The translations under genes and the position numbers were made by a program. The notes under the pieces were generated by a model. It was given only the letters and a program-made list of their open reading frames with translations. It had not been told where the DNA came from and ran no database searches. From the IMG/VR virus record IMGVR_UViG_3300031964_000046, positions 1 through 44,008 of that record: 44,008 nt of DNA; one strand, given 5' to 3'. Below, piece by piece: positions 12,570 to 18,862 of the stretch; positions within the stretch are counted from its first letter, which is position 1, and every line of letters begins with the position of its first letter. This DNA is from a virus.

Positions 12570-12913
12570 ATCGTGTTCGCTCCGTCCTCGTACACAATGT
12601 CCAACACATCGCCGGCGGTCCCGTTGACATACCAGCTCCCGAGGTCACGACCGACACCGGTTGCGGGTCCGACATAGAACGCACCGCCTGGAGTCGCAAC
12701 GCTGAGTCCGCGGGTGGTGCTGATATTCGCGTCTCCGATCCGCATGACGTGGGCTGCATTGTTCTGAAACAGCATCCAAATTGCGTTCAGGTGAGCGCCT
12801 GGGCTCAGAACGGCGGTATTCCCAGCCCCGATGGTAACCTGCATGGTTTTGACAGCTGCGTGGGCCTGCAATGGCAGGAATAGCGCAGCCGCGACAAGTA
12901 TTTTCTTCATCAT
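12566..12913 (-). CDS. Secreted or virion beta-rich protein with signal peptide
   Basis: 115 residues from ATG 12913, which overlaps the terL stop (ATGA) and has GGAG 9 bases upstream. The N-terminus is a textbook Sec signal peptide (MMKKILVAAALFLPLQAHA, cleavage after AHA). The mature part is beta-rich, with an IWMLFQNNAAHVMRIGD motif and a terminal WYVNGTAGDVLDIVYE motif. A signal peptide directly after terL is odd for a phage protein. It may be exported to the envelope or, like the fibre genes at 34-40 kb, be a virion protein carrying a leader. No named family is recognised. Confidence 0.65.
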   Translation of the reverse strand: MMKKILVAAALFLPLQAHAAVKTMQVTIGAGNTAVLSPGAHLNAIWMLFQNNAAHVMRIGDANISTTRGLSVATPGGAFYVGPATGVGRDLGSWYVNGTAGDVLDIVYEDGANTI

Positions 12914-15363
12914 GCCCATCCACTCCTTCTCGCTGGCGGTGCAACTGGTTTAGGTTTCGGCGGCGCAATCTTCACTGCAAACGTCATCGCCCACGCATCT
13001 CCGAAGTCTGGCGAATCCACTCCCCGCGATCGCATCTCGTCTTTGCTCTCAAGCACTATGCAATTCCTCGTAGGGTGGTATCCGTAATCCGGTGCCGTCA
13101 AATCTGTGTCTATCTCTGGATCATCGGGTATCTGTCCACCTTCGAGCCAGTCCTTTCCTTCGCCCCAAATCTCTGTGCGCCGATTGAAATACTTTTGCGG
13201 GTCTTGCGCCGCTGCACCACCGTGGAACTCGAATAAGATCATCTTGCGTCCGTCTGGCCAAATGATCTTGTCATAGCGGCGAGCGACGAGGTAATCGACT
13301 ACCGCCCCGCCAATGCCGTCTCCGTCAATCACTACGGCGTCCGGTCGCTCCCGATCAATTGCTTCCTGAACCATGCCACCAAGCTTCTGAGTGTCCATGC
13401 CGTAGAAGACGCCTTTGGGCTTTCCTCCACATATTTCTGCTTTTCGTCCCTGGCGCTTGAATATGACGCTTCGGTTATCTCCGAATCGAGCAACGTCCAC
13501 GGCGAGGATGACAGGGCTTGATTGGTAGCCATCGACGATTCGCTTTCGCGCTGCTGATACGAGATCGCCGGATATGAATTGCGTAGATCCACCGCGAGGA
13601 AATTCTCCGCGTATTCTGACTCTTGCTCTGTCGGAGTCTTCGCCCCATCCCCTGATTTGGGCGTCGAGGAGCGATTTGTTGGTGCCTTCGACGGTGCGGG
13701 AGTCGATTTGACGCTTGACCCAGCGGTTCGCGCCGGTGATGGCTTTGTAGAACTCGCCGGTGTTGCGCGTTGGGTTTCCGAACGCGATCCAGATGATTTC
13801 CGTGTCTTCATCGCTTAGAACTCCCTCAGCCACTTCCCAGATGATGTCGTCAATTGAGCTAGCCTCGTCGAAGATGATGACGATTCGCTTGCCCTGATTG
13901 TGAAGTCCTGCGAAACCTTCCGTCTTCTGCACCGACCACGTAATAAAGTCGGCTCGCCACATCGCCTGATGCTCAGGGTCTTTGACCCGTATCGACGTGG
14001 CATTGATGTCCCACCAGTGTGCATTGATGCCGTGCCGAAACCACTTCTGCACTTCCGGGGCTGTCTTCGTGGAGAGCTGTACACCAGTTCCAGCCGTGAC
14101 TACTACCTTGCAGTCCTCGCAGGTGCTCATGGCCCAATCAATCACCATGCCAATCTCGGCACTGTTGTGCGTCACAATGAAATCGGAGGTTTGATACAGC
14201 CCTCCGTCCACCTCAAAGCAAATGCCTGGACCCGACTCTATTTCCTCAATTGAATCAATCCACTTAGCCGTGTATCTCGATTCTGCGGCGATCAGACGGC
14301 TTTGCTTTCGAGCAATCTTGAAAAGCTGTGTTACGCCGTCCCAAGTTATATGCGTCTGCCAACTTCCGGCAAATTGATTGGCCTTGAAACTCTCCGCCCT
14401 TGCTCTCAAACCTAACGATCTGGCCAGTTCGATAACGTCTTTGGTGAGCTGACGGGATGCGCTGGCAAACGCTGCTCCTCCGCATTGCTCTACCCAGCCA
14501 TCCGTATCGAGCAATCCTTGAAGAACCTCTAGGCGTTCAGATGACTCGATGTAGCGACGGTCTACCTTTGCGTTATACGTGGTGCAACCAAATAGGCCAG
14601 CCTTGCGAAGATGTTTCTTTAGTCCATATAGGGTACGACAGACGCCTTGCCCACGGTGGGGATACGCCACGTTATCCCAAACTTCTGGGTCGATGTTCGT
14701 TACGCCTCCGCCATCCTTTGTCCCATCTCCGAGCCACACGCCATACGTGTATGGGTCAACGGGTAGCATAGCTTTGGCGTATTGAACTGCGCCAGAGGCA
14801 GGTATCTCCCATTGCCTAGACAAAGAAACTCCGTTGGCCCTCAGAACTCCAGCGTTCACGATATCGAGCGTTGAAACTACCTTCCACCCAGTTCCGTTCC
14901 GCCTAGCTTGTCTGTCCCGCGTCTTCCACAAATGACCGGATGAAACATTGACGGCCGTTCCATCAGAAAAGCGAACTCGATAGAAAGGGCATGACTCGTA
15001 AAACCTCATCGCTCGAATCAAAGCCGGCGATCCATCTTCGCCAAACAGATAATCTCCCACACGCATGGTAGAGATTTGGCGTAAACCGTCAGGCGTAGGC
15101 AGATAATCTTGAGGGCTCTGAGCCTTCCCAATGCCGTGGCCCGATGCGACCGCGATCTGCAATGGCTGATGCCGCGTCTCAGGGCTTGCGAAGTGATCCC
15201 GGATCAGCGTGTTGATGTCGTTCTGCCACGTTCGAGGTCCGCTCGCCGGCAGCTTCTCCGACTCCCAAGGGAAGTTGTACCGCATGAAGCCGACCGGATC
15301 GAGCGAGTAAGCCCCGATGTCCTGGGCAAGGGCTAGTTCTTCCTCTGCCAAGCCGCCCTTCAT
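12910..15363 (-). CDS. terL: Terminase large subunit interrupted by an intein
   Basis: The frame encodes 817 residues: an 80-residue N-extein, a 320-residue intein (81-400) and a 417-residue C-extein, giving a 497-residue mature terminase. Walker A is split: GHGIGK (75-80) is followed after splicing by S401. Walker B is IVIIFDEA (493-500), followed by the coupling motif FGNPTR (529-534). The RuvC-like nuclease shows AVDVARFGD (D623), VVIDGDG (D680) and SPDFGDAWA (D786/D789). The protein pumps DNA into the procapsid and cuts concatemers. ATG 15363 overlaps the RHH ORF stop (ATGA). The host P-loop is useless until the intein is removed, so splicing is essential for packaging. Confidence 0.93.
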   Translation of the reverse strand: MKGGLAEEELALAQDIGAYSLDPVGFMRYNFPWESEKLPASGPRTWQNDINTLIRDHFASPETRHQPLQIAVASGHGIGKAQSPQDYLPTPDGLRQISTMRVGDYLFGEDGSPALIRAMRFYESCPFYRVRFSDGTAVNVSSGHLWKTRDRQARRNGTGWKVVSTLDIVNAGVLRANGVSLSRQWEIPASGAVQYAKAMLPVDPYTYGVWLGDGTKDGGGVTNIDPEVWDNVAYPHRGQGVCRTLYGLKKHLRKAGLFGCTTYNAKVDRRYIESSERLEVLQGLLDTDGWVEQCGGAAFASASRQLTKDVIELARSLGLRARAESFKANQFAGSWQTHITWDGVTQLFKIARKQSRLIAAESRYTAKWIDSIEEIESGPGICFEVDGGLYQTSDFIVTHNSAEIGMVIDWAMSTCEDCKVVVTAGTGVQLSTKTAPEVQKWFRHGINAHWWDINATSIRVKDPEHQAMWRADFITWSVQKTEGFAGLHNQGKRIVIIFDEASSIDDIIWEVAEGVLSDEDTEIIWIAFGNPTRNTGEFYKAITGANRWVKRQIDSRTVEGTNKSLLDAQIRGWGEDSDRARVRIRGEFPRGGSTQFISGDLVSAARKRIVDGYQSSPVILAVDVARFGDNRSVIFKRQGRKAEICGGKPKGVFYGMDTQKLGGMVQEAIDRERPDAVVIDGDGIGGAVVDYLVARRYDKIIWPDGRKMILFEFHGGAAAQDPQKYFNRRTEIWGEGKDWLEGGQIPDDPEIDTDLTAPDYGYHPTRNCIVLESKDEMRSRGVDSPDFGDAWAMTFAVKIAPPKPKPVAPPARRSGWA
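14164..15123 (-). mobile_element. Class 3 (WCT) intein with LAGLIDADG endonuclease
   Basis: 320 residues inserted in the terL P-loop between Lys80 and Ser401. The first residue is Ala, not Cys/Ser (AQSPQDYLPTPDG). The class 3 triplet is complete: Trp146 in block B (SSGHLW, two residues after the block B His144), Cys382 in block F (GICFEV), and Thr398 just before the terminal His399-Asn400 (FIVTHN). Class 3 inteins splice through the block F Cys instead of residue 1. The centre holds two LAGLIDADG-type motifs, GVWLGDGTKDG (block C) and LQGLLDTDGWV (block E), so it may be an active homing element targeting the conserved Walker A codons of intein-free relatives. Confidence 0.9.
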
Positions 15364-15590
15364 TTAGCCCCACAGAGAGAACATTTGCAGCGCGGGTGAT
15401 GCCCTTGCGTTTTGGAGCGGGGGGAAGGAATCGAACCTTCGACCTGCGGACTGGAAGGCCGCTGCTCTTCCTCTGAGCTACCCCTGCGGATCAAATCCAC
15501 CGCAACCCAATTGCGACTGCGTTGAAGCCTCACACCTTCTTCGTCCAGCCGGGCCACCAATTCGTCAGGTATTCGAAGCGATATCACCAT
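15360..15590 (-). CDS. Ribbon-helix-helix protein whose frame contains a tRNA gene
   Basis: A 76-codon frame from ATG 15590. The first 37 residues are an RHH (CopG/Arc) domain: beta strand MVISLRIP, helix DELVARLDEEGV, turn, and helix RSRNWVAVDLI. The frame then passes without a stop through the whole tRNA-Gly gene (25 codons, giving GSSEEEQRPSSPQVEGSIP) and ends with a CKCSLCGAK tail, overlapping the terL start as ATGA. The RHH part is convincing; whether the rest is translated is unclear, since tRNA processing would cut this mRNA. It could be an autoregulator of the packaging operon. Confidence 0.55.
   Translation of the reverse strand: MVISLRIPDELVARLDEEGVRLQRSRNWVAVDLIRRGSSEEEQRPSSPQVEGSIPSPRSKTQGHHPRCKCSLCGAK
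15413..15487 (-). tRNA. tRNA-Gly(TCC)
   Basis: A 75-nt cloverleaf with encoded CCA. Acceptor is GCAGGGG/CCCCCGC with one A-C mismatch at pair 3-70. The D arm is GCTC/GAGC with loop AGAGGAA. The anticodon arm is GCGGC/TCCGC, with the inner C-T pair unpaired, and loop CTTCCAG giving anticodon TCC. The variable loop is 5 nt. The T arm is GAAGG/CCTTC with canonical loop TTCGATT. It reads GGA codons. It lies between terS and terL, wholly inside the reading frame of an RHH ORF on the same strand. Phage tRNAs usually supplement host codon supply; tRNA genes are also common recombination sites. Confidence 0.88.
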
Positions 15591-17324: not shown

Positions 17325-17792
17325 ATGGATATTTTGAACGCAATCGGCACTGTCTTGTTCACGTCTGCCGCAACGATCCTCAAAGATGCGGTTGTTGAAG
17401 CGGTCTCTAAACGAGCCGACCTGCGCGGAGCCAACCTGCGCGGAGCCAACCTGCGCGGAGCCAACCTGTACGGAGCCGACCTGCGCGGAGCCGACCTGCG
17501 CGGAAAGAAAATCCAAGCGCTTCGCGTATTCACCGGACTGTACGAGTATCAGGTGTGGTCTATTCTATTCGCCGACGGTACACGATGGGTTAAGATGGGT
17601 TGCCTATTCTACGACCTAACCGAATGGGAGAAGATTGGCGTACGCGAGAGCAATCTATCGGAGTTCCCGAATGACGGAAGCTCAAAGTGTGAGGAGCGCG
17701 TGGCAGCATTCGAGTTTGCCAAGGGAGTTGCGGAGCGGTTTGTGTTCGTCGAGGAGAAAGTCGAGGCACCCACCAACAGCGAAGCCCCGTAA
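17325..17792 (+). CDS. Pentapeptide-repeat protein with N-terminal hydrophobic segment
   Basis: 155 residues, ATG 17325 with GGAGG about 9 bases upstream. Residues 1-28 (MDILNAIGTVLFTSAATILK...) are mildly hydrophobic. Residues 30-59 contain six A-D/N-L-R/Y-G units, the pentapeptide-repeat signature that folds as a right-handed quadrilateral helix. The rest (YEYQVWSILFADGTRWVKMG) is beta-rich, with an acidic C-terminus. Some pentapeptide proteins mimic DNA and inhibit gyrase, but six units make only one and a half coils, so this may be a small scaffold. The stop lies in a hairpin (17782-17799). Confidence 0.7.
   Translation: MDILNAIGTVLFTSAATILKDAVVEAVSKRADLRGANLRGANLRGANLYGADLRGADLRGKKIQALRVFTGLYEYQVWSILFADGTRWVKMGCLFYDLTEWEKIGVRESNLSEFPNDGSSKCEERVAAFEFAKGVAERFVFVEEKVEAPTNSEAP
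17413..17502 (+). repeat. 15-bp tandem repeat, 6 units
   Basis: Six consecutive units of the form GAGCC[A/G]ACCTGCGCG, with a TACG variant ending unit 4. They encode the pentapeptide units. Near-identity at DNA level indicates recent slippage expansion, so unit number probably varies among relatives. Confidence 0.85.
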
Positions 17793-17847: not shown

Positions 17848-17876
17848 AATATACGCGGATGCTATACTATATGCAA
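17848..17876. promoter_or_regulatory. Candidate promoter cluster upstream of the DUF1376 gene
   Basis: On the minus strand TTGCAT (17876-17871) and TATATT (17853-17848) are 17 bases apart. On the plus strand TATACT (17863-17868) could be a -10 box for the structured leader that follows, with only a weak TTCCAT (17838-17843, 19-base spacer) as -35. The two overlap, so this could be a divergent pair or only one may be real. Confidence 0.35.
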
Positions 17877-17898
17877 GATCGCTTAGGCGATTGGCAAA

Positions 17899-17975
17899 CA
17901 GTTGGGTAGCTCCCAACTGCAGTGGAGCCGGAGGGACTTGAAGACCTCTGGCTCCTGCCTCACTTCAAGGGGGAA
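17899..17975 (+). promoter_or_regulatory. Structured leader with hairpin and predicted H-type pseudoknot
   Basis: First, CAGTTGGG (17899-17906) pairs perfectly with CCCAACTG (17912-17919) around TAGCT. Second, 17925-17934 pairs with 17945-17954 over 10 bp (one G-U) around a 10-base loop. Third, seven loop bases CTTGAAG (17937-17943) are fully complementary to CTTCAAG (17963-17969), which overlaps the AAGGGGGA SD of the DUF1376 gene (start TTG 17980). Stem 2 therefore forms a pseudoknot that covers the SD. This is the geometry of autoregulatory operators such as that of T4 gene 32. No protein or small-molecule ligand is known here. Confidence 0.6.
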
Positions 17976-17979
17976 CACG

Positions 17980-18462
17980 TTGAAAGCACCAGCCTTCCAG
18001 TTTTACGCTGCTGAATACCTTGCCGACGAAAAAGTACAGTTGATGTCTCTTGAGGAAGAGGGATGTTACATACGCCTAATGGCGTTCTGTTGGCGCGAGG
18101 GCAGCATCCCATGTGATCACGAAAAGCTATCCAGACTATGTAAGGGTGCTTCATTCACCCTACTAGCGGTGGTTATGGAGTGCTTTCAGACTTGCGATGA
18201 CAATCCCGACAGGTTGATTCATAAAAGGCTTGAGGCTGAGCGCCGGAAGCAAGCCGAGTGGCGGGAGAAGTCGTCAGCCGGGGGTAAAAAGGGCGCGGAG
18301 TCAAGAAAACTAGCAAGGGTGGTTGAACCAACCAATCAACCACAAGGCAACACTGCATTTGCTTCTGCACTTGCTTCTTCGTCTTTGTCTTCTTCTTCCT
18401 TAAGTACAAATACTTCCGTAAATGAATACTTCTCTAAGGAGGCTTTTGTTAATGAACCCTAA
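17980..18462 (+). CDS. DUF1376 (YdaU-like) replication-type protein
   Basis: 160 residues from TTG 17980, preceded by AAGGGGGA. The N-terminal KAPAFQFYAAEYLADEKVQL followed by LEEEGCYIRLMAFCWREGSI is the DUF1376 signature (F/Y-x-x-D-Y/F-L-x-D, then E-x-G-x-Y-x-x-L). Such proteins are found in prophage replication modules and are thought to be replisome organisers or helicase-loader partners. The C-terminal third is a Lys/Arg/Glu-rich helix followed by a Ser-rich low-complexity tail. The gene is preceded by a predicted pseudoknot, suggesting translational control. Confidence 0.7.
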   Translation: MKAPAFQFYAAEYLADEKVQLMSLEEEGCYIRLMAFCWREGSIPCDHEKLSRLCKGASFTLLAVVMECFQTCDDNPDRLIHKRLEAERRKQAEWREKSSAGGKKGAESRKLARVVEPTNQPQGNTAFASALASSSLSSSSLSTNTSVNEYFSKEAFVNEP

Positions 18463-18862
18463 GCGCCGATATCAGGAATATCTCGCGAGCGATCACTGGG
18501 CGGCGATGAAATTCTTCAAAGCTCAGATGGATGTTGTTCAATGCGTGGCGTGTTTGGCAACCGACGACATCGACCTACACCACATGGTCTATACCAACCC
18601 CCTAGAGGACGCCCAGCTCGAAGACACTTGCTGGTTATGCCATTATTGCCACGGATTGTTCCACCATAAGGCCGGTACAGTGCTGAAGGGTGTTCCACGT
18701 CACTTGCTCATCGCGGAGACCGTACGGGTCATCCTGACATACAATCCGATCGATCCTCCTTGCGACCAAGAACTTTTGTTGGGAAGAAGGACGCTAAATA
18801 GCCTCGGCGTGAATCCTGACCACTACGAGGCAACTCTCAAATTCACCAAGAAAGCAGTATAG
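18452..18862 (+). CDS. HNH nuclease-like protein
   Basis: 136 residues from ATG 18452 (AAGGAGG 9 bases upstream), overlapping the previous gene by 11 bases. It shows an HNH/zinc core: CVAC, then DIDLHHMVYTNP (His-His), then CWLCHYCHGLFHH. Two CxxC pairs bracket the active site, as in HNH proteins with a structural zinc. The C-terminal region (NSLGVNPDHYEATLKFTKKA) is unassigned. It is probably a free-standing nuclease in the early operon rather than a homing insertion, as it fits the coupled gene order. Confidence 0.75.
   Translation: MNPKRRYQEYLASDHWAAMKFFKAQMDVVQCVACLATDDIDLHHMVYTNPLEDAQLEDTCWLCHYCHGLFHHKAGTVLKGVPRHLLIAETVRVILTYNPIDPPCDQELLLGRRTLNSLGVNPDHYEATLKFTKKAV

Follow-up and report, generated by a model that had tools for sequence, protein, structure and literature searches.

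Small riboswitches such as preQ1 and SAM-II have an H-type geometry whose 3′ strand reaches the Shine-Dalgarno (SD) sequence, and riboswitches of this size often draw the SD into a compact pseudoknot. In phage T4, the gene 32 operator begins with a pseudoknot at its 5′ end; the ribosome-binding site (RBS) lies downstream, within a weakly structured stretch of more than 40 nt that bears UUAAA/UAAA repeats (PMC535899). Leader RNA pseudoknots also switch the translation of replication initiators in plasmids of the IncI complex (ColIb-P9 repY-repZ, IncB/K) (PMC8125031) and, likewise, of the rep gene in IncL/M plasmids (repB-repA) (PMC10724649). In these plasmids, repA expression needs the pseudoknot as well as translational coupling to a leader peptide, and is blocked by antisense RNA (PMC8125031, PMC10724649).

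A structured leader ahead of a phage DUF1376 gene

We analyzed a 44,008-nt stretch of viral DNA (IMG/VR record IMGVR_UViG_3300031964_000046, hereafter the window), in which a structured leader precedes a DUF1376 gene, a putative replication gene and a relative of Rac prophage ydaU (Table 1). The sequence-only reading had proposed a pseudoknot covering the RBS of this gene, and its individual elements are real. The perfect 8-bp hairpin that it described (hairpin 1) is read directly from the sequence. Its second element is indeed a stem-loop, although the stem has 11 bp, including one G-U, rather than 10, and closes a loop of 10 nt (hairpin 2). Seven bases of this loop, CTTGAAG, are the exact reverse complement of the SD-overlapping CTTCAAG, as it had claimed, with TGCCTCA standing between hairpin 2 and CTTCAAG. 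A third hairpin, hairpin 0, and the extended −10-like element just ahead of it were absent from that reading. Given the position of the SD, stem 2 covers its first three of seven bases, which counts against a loop/SD switch. The predicted mini-hairpin would present CTTCAAG in its loop and hold the SD core in its stem.

Table 1. Features of the DUF1376 leader in the window
Feature	Position	Strand	Basis
Extended −10-like promoter element, TGCTATACT	17861..17869	+	sequence; putative, good −35 absent
Hairpin 0, GATCGC-TTAG-GCGATT, 6 bp, −5.5 kcal/mol	17877..17892	+	sequence, fold
Hairpin 1, CAGTTGGG-TAGCT-CCCAACTG, perfect 8 bp, −11.9 kcal/mol	17899..17919	+	sequence, fold
Hairpin 2 (pseudoknot stem 1), GGAGCCGGAGG-GACTTGAAGA-CCTCTGGCTCC, −21.8 kcal/mol	17924..17955	+	sequence, fold
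Proposed stem 2, 5′ strand CTTGAAG, inside hairpin 2 loop	17937..17943	+	H-type scan
Proposed stem 2, 3′ strand CTTCAAG	17963..17969	+	H-type scan, fold
Shine-Dalgarno AAGGGGG	17967..17973	+	sequence
Putative mini-hairpin CCTC-(A)CTTCAA(G)-GGGG, about −3 to −4 kcal/mol	17958..17973	+	prediction
DUF1376 (PF07120; YdaU-like), 160 aa, TTG start	17980..18462	+	profile match, alignment of relatives

The TTG start that the leader elements were said to precede is sound, because all aligned relatives begin with MKAPAFQFY at this position and the product matches PF07120 (E 1.1e-7). The protein has 160 aa, against 230-340 aa in most relatives, whose longer C-terminal part is missing from it. An HNH-like gene without a Pfam match (18422-18862, + strand) overlaps the 3′ end of the DUF1376 gene and looks as though it replaces this C-terminal part. 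Upstream of the leader, sequence reading places the end of a pentapeptide-repeat gene at 17792, and short, near-identical DNA repeats (CCTGCGCGGAGCCAA) occur within this gene (window 17400-17510). Farther upstream, an 817-aa terminase large subunit-like ORF (window 12910-15363, − strand) is split by an intein-like insert, which bears LAGLIDADG homing endonuclease signatures (PF14528, PF05204), and a tRNA-Gly (TCC; window 15413-15487, − strand) lies between the terminase genes.

If TGCTATACT acts as a promoter, it would place the transcript start at about 17872-17877; a consensus scan reported no full sigma-70 site. No convincing leader ORF was found in the window leader, where the SD-less candidates start at TTG 17902 (in the DUF1376 frame) and at GTG 17922 (in another frame, running about 30 nt beyond the start), and no intrinsic terminator or attenuator was found. 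A −1 frameshift pseudoknot was rejected: AACTGCAGT stands before stem 1, with no slippery heptamer 5-9 nt upstream in a reading frame.

Compared with the described systems, the leader, with its predicted pseudoknot ahead of a phage gene of DNA metabolism, resembles that of T4 and RB69 gene 32. In T4, however, the pseudoknot serves as a 5′ nucleation site, whereas the proposed window pairing sits on the SD itself; the end of stem 2 is 10 nt from the start, 17956-17979 contains no UUAAA, and the product is a DUF1376 protein and not an SSB. The gene 32-like geometry suggested by the sequence-only reading thus does not hold, and its other analogy, the small riboswitch, is not supported. The leader does share with preQ1 and SAM-II the predicted H-type geometry with an SD-reaching 3′ strand, but it has no second genomic context, and the Rfam 15 covariance models gave no match at gathering thresholds and no meaningful E-value at permissive ones. 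What survives is a structured leader that probably regulates translation, backed by its fold statistics and its position at the RBS. As in the IncI-complex and IncL/M plasmids, a hairpin loop is complementary to a segment at the RBS (CTTGAAG/CTTCAAG) of a putative replication gene. In contrast, the plasmid pseudoknot activates translation and works with a coupled leader peptide and an antisense RNA; a consensus promoter scan found no antisense promoter opposite the window hairpins. The window leader is best described as a possible variant of SD-pairing pseudoknot control.

Fold stability and the likelihood of a chance match

The leader as a whole exceeds chance, while the pseudoknot itself is less secure. 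The fold of 17870-17990 has an energy of −53.1 kcal/mol (z −4.58), with none of 200 shuffles as stable, and 17872-17979 gave a z of −4.6 with 1 of 1,000 shuffles as stable. The leader also ranked first in over-stability among the 53 SD-preceded ORF leaders of the window, a comparison that superseded a sliding-window z scan whose 25 shuffles were too noisy for ranking the site. An H-type scan of both strands (minimum of 8 bp in stem 1 and 6 Watson-Crick pairs in stem 2, loop of 8-16) returned four candidates in the window. The leader pseudoknot was clearly the best and lies on an RBS, with a stacking energy of −36.3 kcal/mol against −25.7 for the next candidate (loop penalties not included). 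This energy was reached somewhere in 62 of 1,000 whole-window shuffles, which counts against a loop/SD switch, although the count ignores the further coincidence that the pairing falls on an SD. Given the hairpin, a 7-base loop match within the 24 bases before the start has a P of 0.002 by mononucleotide shuffle, about 0.005 by 7-mer frequency and 0.03 by downstream dinucleotide shuffle.

These figures bear directly on the strongest rival explanation, in which the hairpins are functional RNA, acting in mRNA stability or as a put-like RNA on RNA polymerase, and the loop/SD complementarity is coincidental. We consider this doubtful but worth serious attention. The significance of the hairpins far exceeds that of the pseudoknot, they stand directly after a promoter-like element at an operon head, and CTTGAAG/CTTCAAG are close to CTTSAAG palindromes, making self-complementarity likelier by chance; on the other hand, the 7-nt match at that place overlaps the SD and has a conditional P of 0.2-3%. 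It is improbable that the inverted repeats are instead DNA operator sites for a repressor, with the RNA fold arising as a side effect. Shortly after the promoter-like element comes the near-perfect 21-bp palindrome CAGTTGGGTAGCTCCCAACTG, as an operator might, but the window holds no second good copy (one other site, with three mismatches, is at about chance level), and three different successive repeats, one of them a long asymmetric-loop hairpin, would be unusual for operators.

Alternative pairings and proposed mechanism

Pairing of CTTCAAG with the hairpin 2 loop would form seven Watson-Crick pairs with about −10.5 kcal/mol of stacking, and both strands can be released from their other pairings in the fold for only about 1.4 kcal/mol. 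CTTCAAG has an alternative partner in the start-codon region, TTGAAAG (17980-17986), and the predicted UUCAA/UUGAA hairpin (−4.7 kcal/mol) would hold the UUG in its stem. Since start-codon pairing excludes loop pairing, the pseudoknot could also work by exposing the start codon. The CCUC/GGGG mini-hairpin is compatible with loop pairing of CTTCAAG, and the two together are predicted to form a kissing complex that would occupy the entire SD. Opening of 17970-17985 costs 5.1 kcal/mol with the stem-2 strands blocked versus 6.5 kcal/mol otherwise, steric occlusion being ignored in this calculation. The direction of control is thus inferred, and even its sign may be read either way.

From its fold statistics and its position on the RBS, the structured leader probably controls DUF1376 translation. 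That it does so as a functional cis-acting element using the loop/SD pairing is, in our estimate, an evenly balanced proposition. The leader, next to the promoter-like element and first in an early phage operon, carries three stable hairpins; under this model, the loop of hairpin 2 would pair with CTTCAAG, either as an H-type pseudoknot or as a kissing complex with the CCUC/GGGG mini-hairpin. This pairing would change the access of the 30S subunit to AAGGGGG...UUG. In the likeliest direction, the paired state would hold down DUF1376 translation until released by a factor, a competing antisense RNA or folding kinetics; with the opposite sign, pairing would release the UUG that the start-codon hairpin holds. 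Should the pairing prove real, the leader would act as a compact RNA switch for a phage replication gene and offer a simple model of RBS-occluding pseudoknots.

Relatives of the leader and a double-pseudoknot RNA in other DUF1376 operons

The window leader was also present in three IMG/VR contigs, each matching the window at 100% identity across the 11.1-11.9 kb that were compared. All copies are thus identical and represent one virus, which counts against the loop/SD switch. A DNA search of INPHARED phages gave no match, and a degenerate stem/loop pattern matched 18 IMG/VR contigs, with the leader in the three identical copies only and the remaining contigs without the full architecture. Among the DUF1376 relatives searched, the leader was seen in none except the identical copies, and the downstream HNH-like gene used as bait recovered the same virus only. 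No such leader precedes the gene in the closest protein relatives (63-65% identity), whose start overlaps or adjoins an upstream stop, which also counts against the switch. A generic H-type scan of the relatives' leaders was noisy, and structured comparison alone was informative.

Other DUF1376 genes (FYADDF-type subfamily) are found in many phages in early operons headed by a leader RNA of about 130-150 nt. It consists, in order, of a 5′ hairpin A with segment W in its loop, a segment P immediately before a leader ORF, and a long hairpin B, whose 3′ half carries P′ and then W′. Examples of W are GTGAGAA, GTAGGAA, GTCGCAT, TTGAATCC, GTAGAACC and CTAGACA, and W′ lies 28-37 nt from the start in the leaders measured. 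In 16 divergent leaders, W/W′ complementarity averaged 7.1 nt for own pairs and 3.8 for swapped pairs; P/P′ complementarity averaged 6.5 and 4.3, respectively. For each, 0 of 200,000 permutations reached the observed value; these figures are somewhat optimistic because the hairpins were chosen partly by complementarity. Furthermore, an alignment of 15 close leaders (A2; including L089:834-984, L092:836-984, L101, L108:64-217, L126 and others) fits the double-pseudoknot structure with 97.9% standard pairs, compared with 36-43% in slid controls, and shows double-sided changes at 13 pairs. Divergent forms occur in L013, L014, L048, L068, L070, L072, L073, L081, L082, L084, L097, L099, L110, L119, L009:2654-2774 and L010:2641-2777.

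The leader ORF, of 30-56 codons and usually but not universally present, spans hairpin B. Its TGA overlaps the ATG of the next gene (ATGA) in eight tabulated leaders, and other leader ORFs stop 1-3 nt ahead of the start or run 26 nt beyond it. No ATG-started leader ORF was found in L065 and L068, the former having a GTG-started one. Between the leader RNA and DUF1376 stands a C5 DNA methyltransferase gene in L085, L108, L117 and L121 and a small ORF in L009, L010, L102, L106, L107, L130 and L142, so the RNA belongs to the operon head and not to one gene. By its layout, which matches the IncI-complex and IncL/M leaders far better than the window leader does, this RNA resembles plasmid rep pseudoknot control. 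It gave no Rfam 15 match in the leaders tested and is apparently undescribed so far.

Covariance model R1 finds the double-pseudoknot RNA in many loci and gave no match in the window up to E = 1. This result largely refutes the idea, which we hold to be very improbable, that the window element is a minimal relative of that RNA. The two do share their position at an operon head, a putative replication gene, the logic of pairing a loop with a segment before the start, and a similar UNR-containing loop. However, the window leader has no P/P′, no long hairpin B and no coupled leader ORF ending on the start, and its partner segment lies 10 nt before the start instead of 28-37 nt; we thus do not place it in the same family. 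A ligand-binding riboswitch of an undescribed class is less credible still, since all that favors it is that compact pseudoknots of small riboswitches often take up the SD, while no Rfam match was obtained and the degenerate pattern found no copies in other genomic contexts.

The common position and logic raise the prior for the window pairing without proving it, and RNA control at DUF1376 operon heads appears recurrent, because the other operons have an independent, covariation-supported leader. We tentatively suggest, while regarding it as somewhat speculative, that pseudoknotted leader RNAs, in two or more unrelated designs, generally act as switches of phage DUF1376 early operons. The compact, SD-pairing design would use one heptamer with two mutually exclusive partners, the loop or the start codon. 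The double-pseudoknot design would be widespread and undescribed, with a coupled leader ORF, in the manner of IncI and IncL/M rep genes. The covariation-backed RNA of DUF1376 early operons occurs in many environmental phages and would bring plasmid-style pseudoknot/leader-peptide control of replication genes to phages, a proposal that is directly testable. As a minor observation, one of these loci (L014:2592-2690) carries a second, truncated DUF1376 start (MKAPAFQFYADDFIGGTVVLTAEDVGAYG), which lacks the leader RNA and precedes the intact gene by about 400 nt.
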